This document shows positions 11,931-22,197 of a stretch of 64,000 nt of DNA, piece by piece; position 1 is the first letter of the stretch; the number at the start of each line of letters is the position of its first letter. The stretch lies in assembly GCA_027624855.1 (NCBI GenBank), contig JAQBTQ010000002.1:124001-188000 (forward strand), given 5' to 3'. The notes under the pieces were generated by a model, which worked only from the letters and a program-made list of their open reading frames with translations, was not told where the DNA came from and did not search any database. This DNA comes from Bacteroidota bacterium. Lineage in GTDB: Bacteria; Bacteroidota; Bacteroidia; Flavobacteriales_D; Sanyastnellaceae. The position numbers and the translations under genes are program-made.

Positions 11931-14426
11931 TCAGATATCGGCGCTGATCCCGATTCGAATTCCCCAGCTATCCGGATCAGACAGCGGTTTGTCAGCGCGC
12001 CAAACGCCGTCTATTCGAATCACTTTTAAAATGTTTTCCAGACCAGCACTGTACTCAATGTAAGAGCCATTCAATCCAGTGGTTCCGTCAGGCAAAGCCA
12101 ACAGTGATTCATGTTTTGAATCCCAGCTTCCTTGAATTCCTTTTGCACTCAGCACCTCTCGAAAGCCCAATCTTCGAATCAATGGAATATGATTCAACAA
12201 GATTCCTTCTCCATGCCATTCTACAGAACCCATGACCCATTGATCGGTGACGTTTTCAAACACCCGCAACATGTTGAACGATTCAGGTGTCATTATAATG
12301 GTGCCACTGGTCGGAACAGCCTCCAGCAAAGGGAATGGTGCGGATCCAAAATACCTGCCTGCTTGTGCAATCCAATTGATTTGTCCCCACCAACCGAGCC
12401 TGATTTCGTCCTCACCTTCGAGTGTGCAACGGAGGTATTGGTATTGTGACCCTAGGATATTTGGGATTCCCCAGGTCACATTTGCAGTCAAGATGGGCCA
12501 TTCCGTTCCCAGACTGAACCGATCGAATTCGCCACCAACAAATCGCTCTCCTCTAGCGTAGCGAACAATTCCGGTCACTTCGGAGGTCACCAATCTGTCA
12601 ATGGGGAGTGCCGTGGAGGGATCCAGAAACTCCCAAGTCCCGCTCGTCCGGACTTGTCGATGACGCCACTCGACAAATCCTGTAAAACCAGGGCCGAACT
12701 CATGAAAAATTGAAGCTTCGGCGCGATGAACTTCTGAGAGTAAGTTGGTCGTGTCCGTCCGAAATGCCGAAGTGAACGCTTCGCCTTGGTTAAGCAATCC
12801 GGCCATTCCAAATTGCTCGAGGTCGCGTTTGAATTCAATATAAGCTTCGGTTCGCGGACTTTTTCTCATGATTTGACGGGCACTGAAGCCTCCTTTCCAG
12901 CGATGGTCGTAGGTTCCATAGGCTCCAAAAACGCTGGGCATAAACCGTGTGCTGAAAGCATTAGAAGTTCTTACATCCAATCGAAATCGCTGACCTTCAG
13001 TGGGGTTTGTGGTATATGAGGACCACCATGCCCCGAGCTCAAGAGGTCCCGTTAAGATGTATCCAGTGCCGAGGAAATAGCCCGCTCCTTTGACGAGCCT
13101 CCATTGGGGTTTGGCGGTGACGGAGTCGGTCATCACCGAAATATTGGATTCCCTTGGAAGTAAGGGTTGAATCCTCAATGAATCCCATTCTTGATCCGTA
13201 CGTTGGGTCGCCAATGAGTCGAATTGTAAATCCCTTCCACCCCTCCATGAATCACTTGCTAACGCGGTGCCCCATTGGTGCTTGTCGAAAGAGTTCGTTC
13301 TCCGCATGTAAGCGCCAATGGAACGATCTGCGATGCTCAAGTCAAATAAAATGGACTCATAACTTAACATCCATCGCTCTTCTTTCTTCAGCCCTTCTTC
13401 AGAAGCAACGGGAATGTAGGATTGCTTCCATTGCATGTCGCGCACGTAGTTGATGTTCGCGCCAGGACTTAATCGAGCATCGACCTCGACCAGCGCCAAA
13501 CTCATGGTATCAACCAACAACTCACCTTCAAATGTCATTTCTCCTTTTCTCCTTGGAACAAAAGCCAATCGCATGGTCGCTCGTCCGTCTCGATCCAGCG
13601 TATCCAGGATGTAGAATCGATAATGAGCGCTGGCTCGATCGTGCAAGGGAGAGGTAAAAACCCGATCGAGCATCAACAGATGATTCTCGTACAAATTGAT
13701 TTCAGGAAACCGGCTGTTCATCTCGGAAGCGGCCATGTCACCTCCACTTCCAAGTTTGCCCGATACTTGGGTTGCGAGAATTTGGGTTTGCTTTTTTTTG
13801 GGCGAGGAGGTCCATTGTTCTTCAGCCACGAATTCCCCAAATAGCACGGGAAGCGCTACCCTGGGCTCTGAGTAATCGATGTAATCGAAAATGAAATCAA
13901 AAGATCCCCAGTACCAGGCGTTGATTTGGCGATCAGTCAAGTCATTGATGTCCACTTCCATGCGCGCGTGAACCTGATGGGAAGCTTCATTTAAGGATTG
14001 GGGATTGTTTCGTTCTTTGGCTTCAATCACCCTTTGCATGAAGGGCTTTGCAGGGTTTTTTTCTTTTTTGTTCGGACGAACTTCTGCTGCCCCAAGATCA
14101 AAGGCCTTGGGCTCTAGGCTGATGTCGATCCGTTGTTTTGCTCCTCGAGTCACCTCGAATGATTGGGATGAATAGCCCAAAAAAGTTGCGGTCAATCGAC
14201 CTGGTCGGTTTTCAGTTGACAAGGAATACCGGCCTTTTTCATTGGTCATAGTACCGGTCCCAGCGCCAACGAGCACCACGTTTACGTATGGCAGAGGATC
14301 TCCAGTGACTGCATCAAACACATGGCCCGAAACTTCCGTGATTTGAGCGCTCAATCCATAAGCATTGACCATCAAGCCAATCAGGCATATCCATCGTCCT
14401 ATCGGAAAGGGGTGATTATTGGGCAT
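11931..14426 (-). CDS. DUF5686 / carboxypeptidase-regulatory-like outer-membrane protein
   Basis: An 831-residue exported protein. A signal segment (WICLIGLMVNAYGLSAQ) is followed by a CarboxypepD_reg-like beta domain (SGHVFDAVTGDPLPYVNVVL...TNEKGRYSL, about residues 30-105). The rest is a long region rich in alternating beta strands, matching the DUF5686 family and probably forming an outer-membrane barrel. No TonB box or plug domain is obvious. Its first 11 nt overlap the tatC end, so it is cotranscribed with tatC. Function unknown; position between tatC and lptB fits an envelope role. Confidence 0.82.
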   Translation of the reverse strand: MPNNHPFPIGRWICLIGLMVNAYGLSAQITEVSGHVFDAVTGDPLPYVNVVLVGAGTGTMTNEKGRYSLSTENRPGRLTATFLGYSSQSFEVTRGAKQRIDISLEPKAFDLGAAEVRPNKKEKNPAKPFMQRVIEAKERNNPQSLNEASHQVHARMEVDINDLTDRQINAWYWGSFDFIFDYIDYSEPRVALPVLFGEFVAEEQWTSSPKKKQTQILATQVSGKLGSGGDMAASEMNSRFPEINLYENHLLMLDRVFTSPLHDRASAHYRFYILDTLDRDGRATMRLAFVPRRKGEMTFEGELLVDTMSLALVEVDARLSPGANINYVRDMQWKQSYIPVASEEGLKKEERWMLSYESILFDLSIADRSIGAYMRRTNSFDKHQWGTALASDSWRGGRDLQFDSLATQRTDQEWDSLRIQPLLPRESNISVMTDSVTAKPQWRLVKGAGYFLGTGYILTGPLELGAWWSSYTTNPTEGQRFRLDVRTSNAFSTRFMPSVFGAYGTYDHRWKGGFSARQIMRKSPRTEAYIEFKRDLEQFGMAGLLNQGEAFTSAFRTDTTNLLSEVHRAEASIFHEFGPGFTGFVEWRHRQVRTSGTWEFLDPSTALPIDRLVTSEVTGIVRYARGERFVGGEFDRFSLGTEWPILTANVTWGIPNILGSQYQYLRCTLEGEDEIRLGWWGQINWIAQAGRYFGSAPFPLLEAVPTSGTIIMTPESFNMLRVFENVTDQWVMGSVEWHGEGILLNHIPLIRRLGFREVLSAKGIQGSWDSKHESLLALPDGTTGLNGSYIEYSAGLENILKVIRIDGVWRADKPLSDPDSWGIRIGISADI

Positions 14427-18577: not shown

Positions 18578-18970
18578 TTAACTCCCTGGATTCAAGTCCT
18601 GCCATGACTTCATGATCAAGCGGGTGGCTGCAATAATCATGAACACGCCAAACACCAATCGGACGATTGATGGATTCAATTTCAATGCCCATTTGCTTCC
18701 AAGCCATGCGCCCAAGACAAATGCAACAGCCAGAACTGCGGCAAATCCGAAGTTGACCTCTCCCGCTTTGTAATAACTGTAAACCGCAAAAATTCCAATC
18801 GGAGGAATCATCATGGCCAGCGAAGTACCTTGTGCCATATGTTGACCCAGCCCCAATCCAAACACCAGGGCTGGAACAATGATCAAGCCACCCCCAATCC
18901 CAACGAATCCACTGGAAATCCCGGCTAACAAGCCAATCATGAGCAAAAGGATGAGCGTTGTAAAATCCAT
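18578..18970 (-). CDS. Half-length TSUP (TauE/SafE) family permease
   Basis: A 130-residue membrane protein with about four helices and the TSUP opening LLAGISSGFVGIGGGLIIVPAL, plus GTSLAMMIPPIG. Full TSUP proteins have two such halves in about 250 residues; this is a single half, so it would have to dimerise. Substrate unknown (the family moves sulfite, sulfonates or similar anions). It lies 11 nt after the large propeller/barrel gene and probably shares its transcript. Confidence 0.85.
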   Translation of the reverse strand: MDFTTLILLLMIGLLAGISSGFVGIGGGLIIVPALVFGLGLGQHMAQGTSLAMMIPPIGIFAVYSYYKAGEVNFGFAAVLAVAFVLGAWLGSKWALKLNPSIVRLVFGVFMIIAATRLIMKSWQDLNPGS

Positions 18971-18981
18971 GGATCAAAAAT

Positions 18982-21900
18982 TCAAAAGTCGAGATGAAGT
19001 GAAAGGTTGAAGAGTCGGTCTTGCCATCGCCCATCATCGACGCCCCAACTCCAGTCGGTACGAAGCCAGTAACCGAGCACCTTTGCCCTGAGGCCGAAGC
19101 CCGTTCCCCAAATCACTGGTTCACGGTTGTTATCAATGGTGACAGTTATGGGGTTTTGTGTGACTGTGACTTGATTGAACGTGTTGTCACTGTCGTAGGG
19201 ATGTTTGCCGTTCCAAGCTGAACCCACATCTGCAAACCCGACGAATTGCAGGGTTTCCATGAGATTCGATTCGACGGGTTTGTTACTCAAGGTGCTCCAA
19301 ATCGGAATTCGAATCTCGCTATTGATTAGTGCCATATGGGAGCCGTTGCGGGCATTGGCATTGAATCCGCGTAACGGCGCCAATCGGGTTTGGTAGGCGT
19401 AATTCACGTTTGGATCAATCGGCGTCTCGGCATTGGGCGTTAAGGACAAAACATTATCCACTCCGCCGAGTAAATGCAATAAGCGTTGCTCTCCGATGGA
19501 CCAATCAGCACTGAATCGATTGGCCCAAATGATGTTCCTCCAAAGTTGCCGATACGTTCTAAAATCGATGCCGATGGTTCCGAATGTCTGAGAGCGTTGT
19601 GCGGGATTGCTATAGTACTCAAACCAAGCGCGGTAACGCGTTCCTTCAGGAATGTTGATCATCCGCTGCCTCGTGTTATCGAGGACGTAAGCGACTTGGA
19701 TTCCGACTTGATTATCAAAGGTGATGGGTTTTGTCAGGTTGAACGCATCGGTTGACAGTGGAGTGTTGCGGTCCAGTCGAAACAAGCCCTGGATGCGCAA
19801 ACTTCTCACTTCATCAATCGCGTATTTCCATTGCCGTCTGAGCAGATGAATGTGCGTATTGACATAGGTTTGATTGTTAACCGGTTGAGTCACTCCCTGC
19901 CGTTCGAAAATCCAAGAACGATCCCATCGCAATGCTTGATCGGTAAACGACAACATGTACCGGCTGTTTTCAAGTGAACCGGAAAGCCTAAAACCCGCTG
20001 TGAAAATTTTATTCTCGAACAAGTCGGTCATTGAAATGCGAGATAGCCCTCCAAGCCCGGGTTGCACCGTGATATTGCCGTTGTAGGCTTGATAGAAATT
20101 CGCGCCATATGAGTTATCCAATTGACTGGAGATGGATTGTATGGTGTATTCCGTCAGGTAATAACTGGATCGAGGAATGACGAATGGTTGCCACTGTGCG
20201 TCTTCAGTTCCCTCTTCTTCCATTGCTTGGTCGGATTCATCATAAACCTCGGCCGTCCCAAATTCATAATTTCGAAAATCTGCCTGATGCGCCTGAGGAC
20301 GCCATTCCCAATCGAGGATGACATCGAGCTCATCAGCTGCGTCATTGATGTCCAATTCGATGCTGCCCGACTCAAAAGAACGCAACTTCGTGTTTTCGAG
20401 GAAAAGGTGGCCATTCAATTGGTGTTCCTTTACCAGCTGATTTTTCGCCCGAATCAAGTGGAATCTTGCAATGGGGTTTTGAAAAGTCTCTAACGTTTGA
20501 GATTGAATGACGTACCGGTAGTGAATGGTGGTATCGATAAAAGCCACGACGCTGTCTCGCCAAAACACATCGCGGCGTTGGTTCCCGCTGAGGTTTTCCG
20601 TCAAGGTCGTTACCTGTCCGTTTTCTAAAATGACAGGGAACCTTTCATCCGAATTGGGAGTGGACGACCATTGTTCGATCACAGCTTCTTTGCCATTCCA
20701 CTGCAATTGAAAAACATCATGATTCTTGGAAAGGGGCTTGCCAAAGACATGCGATTGCTCAGGGTCTGCGTTCGGTCGGTTTGAAGTAAACCAAATGGAT
20801 TGGCCGTCTGCAGCAAAAACAGGATCTAAGTCGTCGTAAATGTCCGCAGTTTTGGACGTTAAGTTGTTGCCCAATACGTTATAGCGAAAGATGTCGGACC
20901 TGCCTTTGCTTACTGCGCTCATGGCCATTGAGAGGCCATCAGGAGCATACTCCATAGCGATGACCTTGTTGATCTGCGAGAGGGGCTTGGTGCTGAAAAT
21001 GAAGTCGGTCAGGTCCACACTTACCAGCATCGGGGCCGACTTGATCAACACCGAATAAGTCAAAAGATTCCCGTTGGGGTGCCAAGCCATGGGTACAGGA
21101 TCGGCATCCTGAATTCGGTCAATTTTGTTCCCATAAGTATTGAGCTTTTTGACTTCTCCAGTTCGGTTATCCCCGAGCCAAATGGTCAACTGGCCCATTT
21201 CATTTTCGGACCAGGCGTACCGATGTCCATCGGGATGGAACGTGATGGAACGAATGGGAGAATCGGCATGAACCGGCATGTTCCAATCTCCTGTTTCGTT
21301 TCGTGATTTGCGTAACGCTTTTCTCGAATTGAGCGGCGGATACAAATCTGTGGTGGCCGATTGTTGTAACAGGTATTGACTGGCTTCAGATAAAACCAAA
21401 TCCATAGGCATTCCTGTAGCGTATTGCAGGCCATCGTTCAGGCTATTCGACACGCGAATCATATACAGAAGGTTGGCAATCACTCCCTTCCCGTAGACAT
21501 CCGTGATGTATTTCCAGATTCCGTGACCAACATATCGCGCATCGTCAAATGCAGTTCGCTGTGCATTTAGAATTTTATTGCAGCGCGCTGCGTCTTCAAT
21601 TTCCATTGCCAATTCTGCTGACCAAGGTTGCGAAATGAAAGAATGTAAGCCTTGATCAAACCACTCGGGAAATTCCAATCCTGACGTCGAATTTCGCAAA
21701 GCTTCTTGCCAGTTGCCTCCATAGAGGATTTGGTTGAAAATCAGCTCGGACAGGTTTTTTTTGACCAGTGCCTCGGTATGCTCCCACGTCCCATCTGCAA
21801 ATACAAACACCTTTGATCCTACCAGTGTCGCGGTGCCGCCGATGTTATCGGCGGTTTCCATACTGCTACCGATGTTCGACTGATAAAAATCACTGGCGCT

Positions 21901-22197
21901 ATTAAATACCAATACCTGCACACCACCCGTCAATTTTCGGTCGTACATGGACTCCACCTCCTTGATCCAACCATTCAACTGCGACCCCACTTGGTAGGCA
22001 AATTCTTTGCCATTGGTGTAATAAAAAACTTGGGAATTGTCTACCGAAAAGTACTGCCATCCAAAGGTTCGATACTGCACGCGGTTTTTTCCGAATTGCA
22101 TGTTCGACCCGTCGTAAAACTGACCGTGGAAAACGCTCGTAAAAAAAAGCGAAGTCAATACAAGTGTTACGCCAATGAAATAGCTTTGTTGCCGCAT
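18982..22197 (-). CDS. Large secreted protein: pseudo-peptidase, beta-propeller and outer-membrane barrel
   Basis: A 1071-residue protein from the ATG at 22197, which begins a clear signal peptide ending near VFHGQ. Residues ~30-240 resemble a peptidase-MA-like module (QVFYYTNGKEFAYQVG...FPEWFDQGLHSFI), but the spot where HExxH would be reads NLSELIFNQ, so it looks inactive. Residues ~290-560 carry WD40/PD40-type blades (PIRSITFHPDGHRYAWSE, DLDPVFAADGQSIWFTSN). The last ~350 residues look like a surface-antigen/BamA-like barrel (IGIDFRTYRQLWRNIIWANRFSADW). TolB-like naming is possible but unproven. An alternative ATG 12 codons upstream would lie inside the divergent MBL gene. Confidence 0.75.
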   Translation of the reverse strand: MRQQSYFIGVTLVLTSLFFTSVFHGQFYDGSNMQFGKNRVQYRTFGWQYFSVDNSQVFYYTNGKEFAYQVGSQLNGWIKEVESMYDRKLTGGVQVLVFNSASDFYQSNIGSSMETADNIGGTATLVGSKVFVFADGTWEHTEALVKKNLSELIFNQILYGGNWQEALRNSTSGLEFPEWFDQGLHSFISQPWSAELAMEIEDAARCNKILNAQRTAFDDARYVGHGIWKYITDVYGKGVIANLLYMIRVSNSLNDGLQYATGMPMDLVLSEASQYLLQQSATTDLYPPLNSRKALRKSRNETGDWNMPVHADSPIRSITFHPDGHRYAWSENEMGQLTIWLGDNRTGEVKKLNTYGNKIDRIQDADPVPMAWHPNGNLLTYSVLIKSAPMLVSVDLTDFIFSTKPLSQINKVIAMEYAPDGLSMAMSAVSKGRSDIFRYNVLGNNLTSKTADIYDDLDPVFAADGQSIWFTSNRPNADPEQSHVFGKPLSKNHDVFQLQWNGKEAVIEQWSSTPNSDERFPVILENGQVTTLTENLSGNQRRDVFWRDSVVAFIDTTIHYRYVIQSQTLETFQNPIARFHLIRAKNQLVKEHQLNGHLFLENTKLRSFESGSIELDINDAADELDVILDWEWRPQAHQADFRNYEFGTAEVYDESDQAMEEEGTEDAQWQPFVIPRSSYYLTEYTIQSISSQLDNSYGANFYQAYNGNITVQPGLGGLSRISMTDLFENKIFTAGFRLSGSLENSRYMLSFTDQALRWDRSWIFERQGVTQPVNNQTYVNTHIHLLRRQWKYAIDEVRSLRIQGLFRLDRNTPLSTDAFNLTKPITFDNQVGIQVAYVLDNTRQRMINIPEGTRYRAWFEYYSNPAQRSQTFGTIGIDFRTYRQLWRNIIWANRFSADWSIGEQRLLHLLGGVDNVLSLTPNAETPIDPNVNYAYQTRLAPLRGFNANARNGSHMALINSEIRIPIWSTLSNKPVESNLMETLQFVGFADVGSAWNGKHPYDSDNTFNQVTVTQNPITVTIDNNREPVIWGTGFGLRAKVLGYWLRTDWSWGVDDGRWQDRLFNLSLHLDF
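22181..22188 (+). promoter_or_regulatory. -7 box for the MBL-fold gene
   Basis: Exact TAGCTTTG, ending 30 nt before the ATG at 22219. It lies inside the first codons of the divergent gene, because the intergenic gap is only 21 bp. No -33 box was seen. Confidence 0.4.

Follow-up and report, generated by a model that had tools for sequence, protein, structure and literature searches.

What would a predicted outer-membrane protein do with a peptidase fold whose active site has decayed? This question is raised by a gene in the 64,000-nucleotide stretch of contig JAQBTQ010000002.1 analysed here, which as a whole we call the window; all coordinates are counted within it, and the source assembly comprises 2.29 Mb in 40 contigs. 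On the minus strand, the window holds an unbroken open reading frame (ORF) of 1071 codons and a stop, with an ATG at 22197 and the stop at 18982. The first-pass annotation described its product as one exported protein joining a peptidase-MA-like module with a ruined HExxH, a propeller and an outer-membrane barrel. By sequence comparison, we show that the polypeptide combines three such modules, that almost every main-family member sampled outside the class of the window's genome has HExxH and the window's clade lacks it, and that the dead head is under purifying selection within the genus. In the explanation to which we give an even chance, the protein is a POTRA-free Omp85 factor, and its head, formerly a quality-control peptidase, is now a client-binding module. 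The gene and its parts are as follows, with the basis of each in brackets.

18982..22197, minus strand: gene of the gluzincin-like / propeller / Omp85 protein, 1071 residues (ORF and 14-member alignment)
22123..22197, minus strand: N-terminal hydrophobic segment, signal-peptide-like, residues 1-25, without a lipobox cysteine (sequence read directly)
21358..22062, minus strand: gluzincin-fold (peptidase MA-like) domain, residues ~46-280, without catalytic residues (AlphaFold2 (AF2) model, structure match, PF13485 in relatives)
21745..21759, minus strand: former HExxH site, residues 147-151, now KNLSE (110-member alignment and column counts)
21652..21654, minus strand: former third zinc ligand, residue 182, Q instead of E (110-member alignment and column counts)
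20518..21282, minus strand: TolB/PD40-type beta-propeller, residues ~306-560 (PD40 and TolB profiles, solved TolB)
20185..20517, minus strand: variable linker, residues ~561-671, the least conserved part (conservation computed for residues 561-670)
18985..20184, minus strand: Omp85-type outer-membrane barrel, residues ~672-1071, last residue F (PF01103 in orthologues, presumed-BamA profile match)
19363..19371, minus strand: RGF motif, residues 943-945, aligned with LRGF of presumed BamA (alignment and profile comparison)

An alternative GTG lies 12 codons upstream of the ATG and would make the protein 1083 residues long. We favour the start at 22197 because 14 aligned members agree on it, with M1, Q4, S5 and Y6 invariant. 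The N-terminal segment resembles a signal peptide, so that the protein is apparently exported.

AF2 models of the full protein and of the barrel alone were built from 14 and 15 sequences, respectively (the window protein and close relatives). The former is confident mainly over residues ~46-280, and this head, when compared with solved structures, best matches the collagenase 7wss_A (Z 13.8 over 230 residues, 3.8 Å, 10% identity) and also matches M1 aminopeptidase catalytic domains with Z about 12. In the Pfam scan, the window protein gave no match to PF13485 (Peptidase_MA_2). At E up to 1, this profile is found in all 19 members examined from the HExxH half of the family tree described below (best 3.8e-16) and in 7 of the 32 members of alignment A2 (best 7e-4), and a profile comparison matches the HExxH-half alignment to A2 over 989 columns. 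On the one hand, the head has the fold of the peptidase MA / gluzincin group. On the other hand, the HExxH and downstream E of that group are replaced by KNLSE and Q182, and because of these residues we do not class the window protein as an active peptidase. A viral-contig scan for more diverse relatives found none.

The extent of this loss was read from 110 rows sampled across the phylum, which were grouped by kinship and not by the motif itself. Duplicates of same-genus genomes (L033-L047) and two fragments (L024, L071) had been dropped before rows were counted. HExxH is present in 53 rows and absent from 57. Among the main-family rows outside the class, 45 of 46 carry it, the exception being L144, and so do all 6 deep-subfamily rows (8/8 for deep-subfamily rows in all). 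Within the class, it is absent from 56 of the 58 tree rows, and the two keepers, L147 and L151 (family f14), belong to a deep subfamily. In a further class sample, from which six ORF pieces without the active-site region had been dropped, the motif is absent at the site in 73 of the 74 rows covering it, counting L223 and L241, which are one gene, and L164 and L169, which repeat genes already on the tree. The exception, L239, is absent from the tree and was assigned by its site sequence, which is of the deep-subfamily type. When the same-order alignment was read by eye, HExxH was seen in none of 52 rows. Considering that the class rows keeping HExxH are of the deep-subfamily type, the loss belongs to the gene lineage and not to the class. 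The missing motif to which the first-pass annotation had drawn attention is therefore real, but it characterises the entire clade of the window and not this protein alone.

The tree was computed from 791 columns with the catalytic columns removed (IQ-TREE quick search, SH-aLRT only, unrooted). All 56 motif-less class rows fall on one side of a branch with SH-aLRT 100, and the presence/absence label needs 2 changes over the 110 rows; we refer to the two sides as the window's clade and the HExxH half. A complete active site is a general feature of gluzincins, and for this reason we infer that the direction is loss of HExxH and not gain. Among the 45 main-family HExxH rows, E182 and E186 are each present in 45/45. 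The 56 motif-less class rows retain one H147 and one E148, in different rows, and no H151, while E182 is still present in 20 of them. In L222, one of the 73 motif-less rows of the further class sample, WFNEGLAEY still reads intact while HExxH is gone, as if HExxH had been lost before the downstream part. An HE..H found elsewhere in the N-terminal part of class member L205 was judged to be a chance occurrence, since its aligned site reads A-G-K. As a separate observation, L144 (G332, family f59) lies on a long branch inside the HExxH half with its NEGLAEY part intact, and looks like a second, independent HExxH loss outside the class.

The dead head is retained under purifying selection. By Nei-Gojobori counting over 10 overlapping, chosen pairs among 13 same-genus relatives (the window protein excluded), with dS saturated in several pairs, dN/dS ranges over 0.027-0.114 in the head, compared with 0.029-0.145 in the propeller and 0.016-0.085 in the barrel. 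Over the 56 motif-less rows, mean conservation is 0.486 in the head versus 0.496 in the barrel. The head domain is kept, and the active-site constraint is gone.

Behind the head, the window protein scores 24 bits on PD40, against a cut-off of 20.9, and E 3e-14 on the TolB profile. The family profile matches solved TolB at E 1.6e-20, and the TolB equivalog cut-off is not reached (52.8 versus 343 bits). Besides TolB-type propellers, the profile search of solved structures returned only two S9-type peptidases, two oligogalacturonate lyases, one uncharacterised protein and a single hit at E 0.95; no Omp85 barrel was among them, an absence that we do not count against the barrel, since it has the support of other profiles.

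The barrel itself was recognised through relatives. At E up to 1, 7 of 14 same-genus members match PF01103 (Omp85), the best of them at 8.7e-9, and five same-genus orthologues (G002, G008, G012, G015 and G020; 40 genomes searched) exceed its cut-off. As presumed BamA we took 16 ORFs of 838-870 residues from this genome and its relatives, picked by PF01103 match and length. Their profile is matched by the barrel profile of the window's clade at E 3e-6 over 99 columns and by that of the HExxH half at E 8.9e-11 over 184 columns, and the match pairs RGF with LRGF together with the last strands. The RGF/RGY signature of Omp85 is thus represented in the window protein by RGF at 943-945, which we take to be the loop-6 motif. 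RG followed by an aromatic residue occurs in 57/57 motif-less and 41/53 HExxH rows, and the terminal F in 56/56 rows of the window's clade. The barrel profile places the family in the Omp85 superfamily at family level; the closed 16-strand barrel of that superfamily is putative here, as neither AF2 model resolves the barrel. No POTRA domain was present among the Pfam matches of the window protein, among those of the 14 members of alignment A1, or among the families listed (25 of 28) for the 32 members of A2. The window's genome also encodes other Omp85 proteins, namely the presumed BamA (an 870-residue ORF with the best PF01103 match) and a 797-residue ORF over the cut-off. With the fold match of the head and the propeller and Omp85 profiles, the three modules proposed at first reading are borne out.

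The family is widespread across the phylum, as judged from profile matches. It was matched in 58 of 60 near genomes and, at E 1e-10, in 315 of 392 genomes drawn from the phylum. Among these, 51 matches are weak, worse than 1e-17 (46 in family f29 and 5 in f17/f22), and those that were searched again matched only in the propeller region; by our own reading of the table, 264/392 lie below E 1e-40, deep subfamilies included. Within the class, 234 of 296 genomes match at E 1e-40. The matches listed are mostly single ORFs of about 1000-1200 residues, in agreement with the original description of a single fused protein. Orthologues with the modules as separate genes were looked for, and no clean split was seen among the matches listed. 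Halves lie on different contigs in G033, G040, G041 and G051, and we regard these as assembly breaks and not separate genes because all of them run to contig ends; in G046 and G460 there is a break inside the gene. Separately, the class members G287 and G295 (family f22) showed neither a sorting domain of the type IX secretion system (T9SS) at E 1e-5 nor the family gene at E 1e-40.

The first-pass annotation regarded TolB-like propellers and BamA-like barrels as normally separate proteins. This view leaves out the WD40-Omp85 subfamily of the Omp85/TpsB superfamily, which has a TolB-like propeller before the barrel and no POTRA, is said to recall a BamA-BamB fusion and was described in 2014 (Heinz and Lithgow 2014, PMC4104836). 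The window protein has the same propeller-before-barrel, POTRA-free layout, and its family very likely corresponds to the WD40-Omp85 proteins, compared by description and not by member lists. The description given there covers the propeller only; the words 'peptidase' and 'gluzincin' do not occur in the main text, and the group that it names 'metalloprotease' is another Omp85 subfamily, with PF00149 (PMC4104836). In mostly freely readable literature, we found the term WD40-Omp85 in no other paper and the peptidase-like head nowhere in print. The propeller-Omp85 fusion itself is thus already known. To it we add the peptidase-like head, which occurs with an intact and with a dead site, the one main loss behind the dead form, the selection that has kept the dead head and, in the HExxH half, the linkage to TamB.

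Other known systems share parts of this architecture. BamA has the Omp85 barrel with RGF but differs in its POTRA domains, and the presumed BamA is a separate gene. TolB shares the propeller but is a periplasmic protein of its own. BepA, the M48 peptidase at BAM, differs from the window protein in being a separate protein of another peptidase family, and has a TPR partner domain. It also ties a zinc-peptidase fold to outer-membrane assembly, which is a functional analogy only (PMC8423444). TamA and TamL share the Omp85 barrel, but three POTRAs and a predicted lipid anchor are described for TamL of F. johnsoniae (PMC12045153), whereas the window protein has no POTRA and, as read from its sequence, no cysteine near the N-terminus that could belong to a lipobox. 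PlpD, a patatin-Omp85 protein, likewise has an enzyme domain fused to an Omp85 barrel, but as described it carries another enzyme and delivers it to the surface (PMC4104836); the Pfam scan gave no patatin match in the window protein.

In the explanation that we prefer, the TolB-like propeller and the gluzincin-fold domain ahead of it would replace the POTRA domains. In BamA and TamA, the region before the barrel lies in the periplasm, and by analogy the corresponding part would be periplasmic here as well. Head and propeller would bind outer-membrane clients that are unfolded or only partly assembled, and hand them over to the barrel, which would insert or translocate them. In HExxH-bearing relatives, the head could also cut stalled clients, as BepA does at BAM. 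In the window's clade, the head would only bind, that is, a built-in quality-control peptidase would have been turned into a client-binding scaffold. E. coli BepA is described as promoting the assembly of LptD or degrading it, probably on BAM, and an edge strand next to its active site as needed for both assembly and degradation (PMC8423444). A head that has lost cutting and kept binding would fit this picture by analogy. A wider version, which we consider rather unlikely, supposes that a machine for outer-membrane assembly containing its own zinc peptidase is spread over the whole phylum. Outside the class, it would be an active insertase-protease working with a TamB-like bridge; within the class, the protease would have died when the class machine arose and would have found new use as a head for client binding or gating. 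As to the first-pass annotation, its observation is confirmed and its interpretation partly supported: a putative self-contained outer-membrane device with a substrate-recognition head is plausible.

The gene neighbourhood gives a further lead. In 10 of 17 HExxH-half loci (L287-L292, L294 and L297-L299), which represent several non-class families, the fusion gene directly follows RNase R on the same strand, and RNase R in turn follows a large TamB-like gene 2.0-2.5 kb upstream of the fusion gene. One further locus has RNase R alone; in L300, which is among the 17, the anchor gene went unrecognised. At the upstream place, PF04357 (TamB) is found in 7 of these 10 genomes, four of which (G300, G177, G181 and G075) have no other PF04357 match at E 1e-10. 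This synteny points to outer-membrane assembly, as a lead and not as proof. In the window's genus, RecQ, TauE and a metallo-beta-lactamase (MBL)-fold hydrolase flank the gene in 10/10 loci; same-genus neighbours are conserved as a block and are therefore uninformative.

Two neighbours of the fusion gene in the window may be described in their own right. At 18578-18970 (minus strand) lies a TauE/SafE protein of 130 residues only, which covers profile positions 1-112 of 237 and is perhaps a half-size transporter that dimerises; a relative adjoins the fusion gene in 10/10 same-genus loci. At 11931-14426 (minus strand), close to TatC and an ABC ATPase, lies a CarboxypepD_reg + DUF5686 protein, which we guess to be another outer-membrane barrel.

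Several results weigh against a client-binding Omp85 factor. The TamB-like/RNase R arrangement, or RNase R alone, occurs in 0 of 18 window-clade loci (15 from other genera together with the window, L038 and L040), and 7 of the 17 HExxH-half loci have no TamB gene at that place; moreover, RNase R stands in between, so the synteny may be a matter of housekeeping. Instead, the 18 loci, in which ORF calling was crude and RecQ was recognised by eye, show an MBL-fold gene in 13, TauE in 9 and RecQ in 8, neighbours that suggest no shared pathway. The gene has no match at E 1e-40 in 62 of the 296 class genomes and is therefore dispensable in some lineages. The window protein alone scores 15.4 bits on PF01103, where the cut-off is 24 bits; modelled by itself in AF2, the barrel has a pLDDT of 34, and the full-protein model leaves the barrel at low confidence. 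Head columns with one residue in at least 90% of rows number 12/233 in the 56 motif-less rows versus 52/233 in the 45 HExxH rows, an uncalibrated comparison of two sets that differ in depth. Finally, the periplasmic position of the head is drawn from analogy, and cutting by HExxH-bearing heads is putative.

The same data can be read in other ways. The upstream TamB-like genes would suit an outer-membrane partner of a TamB-like bridge, working in lipid or protein transport between the membranes with the peptidase head as a side function, and an NCBIfam TamL profile is found in 11 of 19 HExxH-half members at E up to 1 (best 1.7e-9). We think this improbable. When three of the upstream neighbours were submitted to hmmscan, the result was TamB for one but AsmA/DUF748 for two, and the genomes of the HExxH-half loci contain several further Omp85 matches as potential partners of TamB. 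In the window's genome, the one TamB is on contig C9 while the fusion gene is on C37; elsewhere in the class, TamB adjoins another Omp85 in at least four genomes (G121, G306, G424 and G549). A barrel that exports its own head and propeller to the surface, as in type Vd secretion, would make the ancestral form a surface peptidase and the dead form an adhesin or receptor. The described layout of PlpD, with an N-terminal enzyme placed on the surface by an Omp85-type barrel (PMC4104836), lends this idea some ground. The periplasmic position of the pre-barrel part of BamA and TamA and the match of the propeller to periplasmic TolB speak for the opposite side of the membrane, and we consider surface export unlikely.

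Considering that the T9SS is a main export route of these bacteria and that the window's genome has 58 matches to its sorting domains, the protein could also be an accessory of that system. Among the 62 class genomes without a family match, a subset of 19 was checked, and 17 still have sorting domains; accordingly, the gene is not a required T9SS part. The main text of the F. johnsoniae BAM paper mentions no propeller, PD40, TolB or peptidase (PMC12611786), and the gene was not sought in F. johnsoniae; we regard a T9SS role as very improbable. The fall in near-invariant head columns, uncalibrated as it is, would also be expected of a loose scaffold, in which the head is a functionless relic kept because the rest of the protein needs it for folding. 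The low dN/dS of the head within the genus and its conservation, equal to that of the barrel in the motif-less clade, argue against such a relic, and we hold little belief in it.

Omp85 proteins build outer membranes. A 2025 study of BAM in F. johnsoniae reports that Bacteroidota do so with unexpected parts (PMC12611786). The conserved extra Omp85 seen here, with a fused peptidase-like head whose site is complete in some classes and dead in another, amounts to a natural experiment. It raises the question of whether the proteolysis of outer-membrane quality control can be dropped while the binding step stays. For this question, the family offers clear test residues and, in TamB, a gene-neighbour lead.

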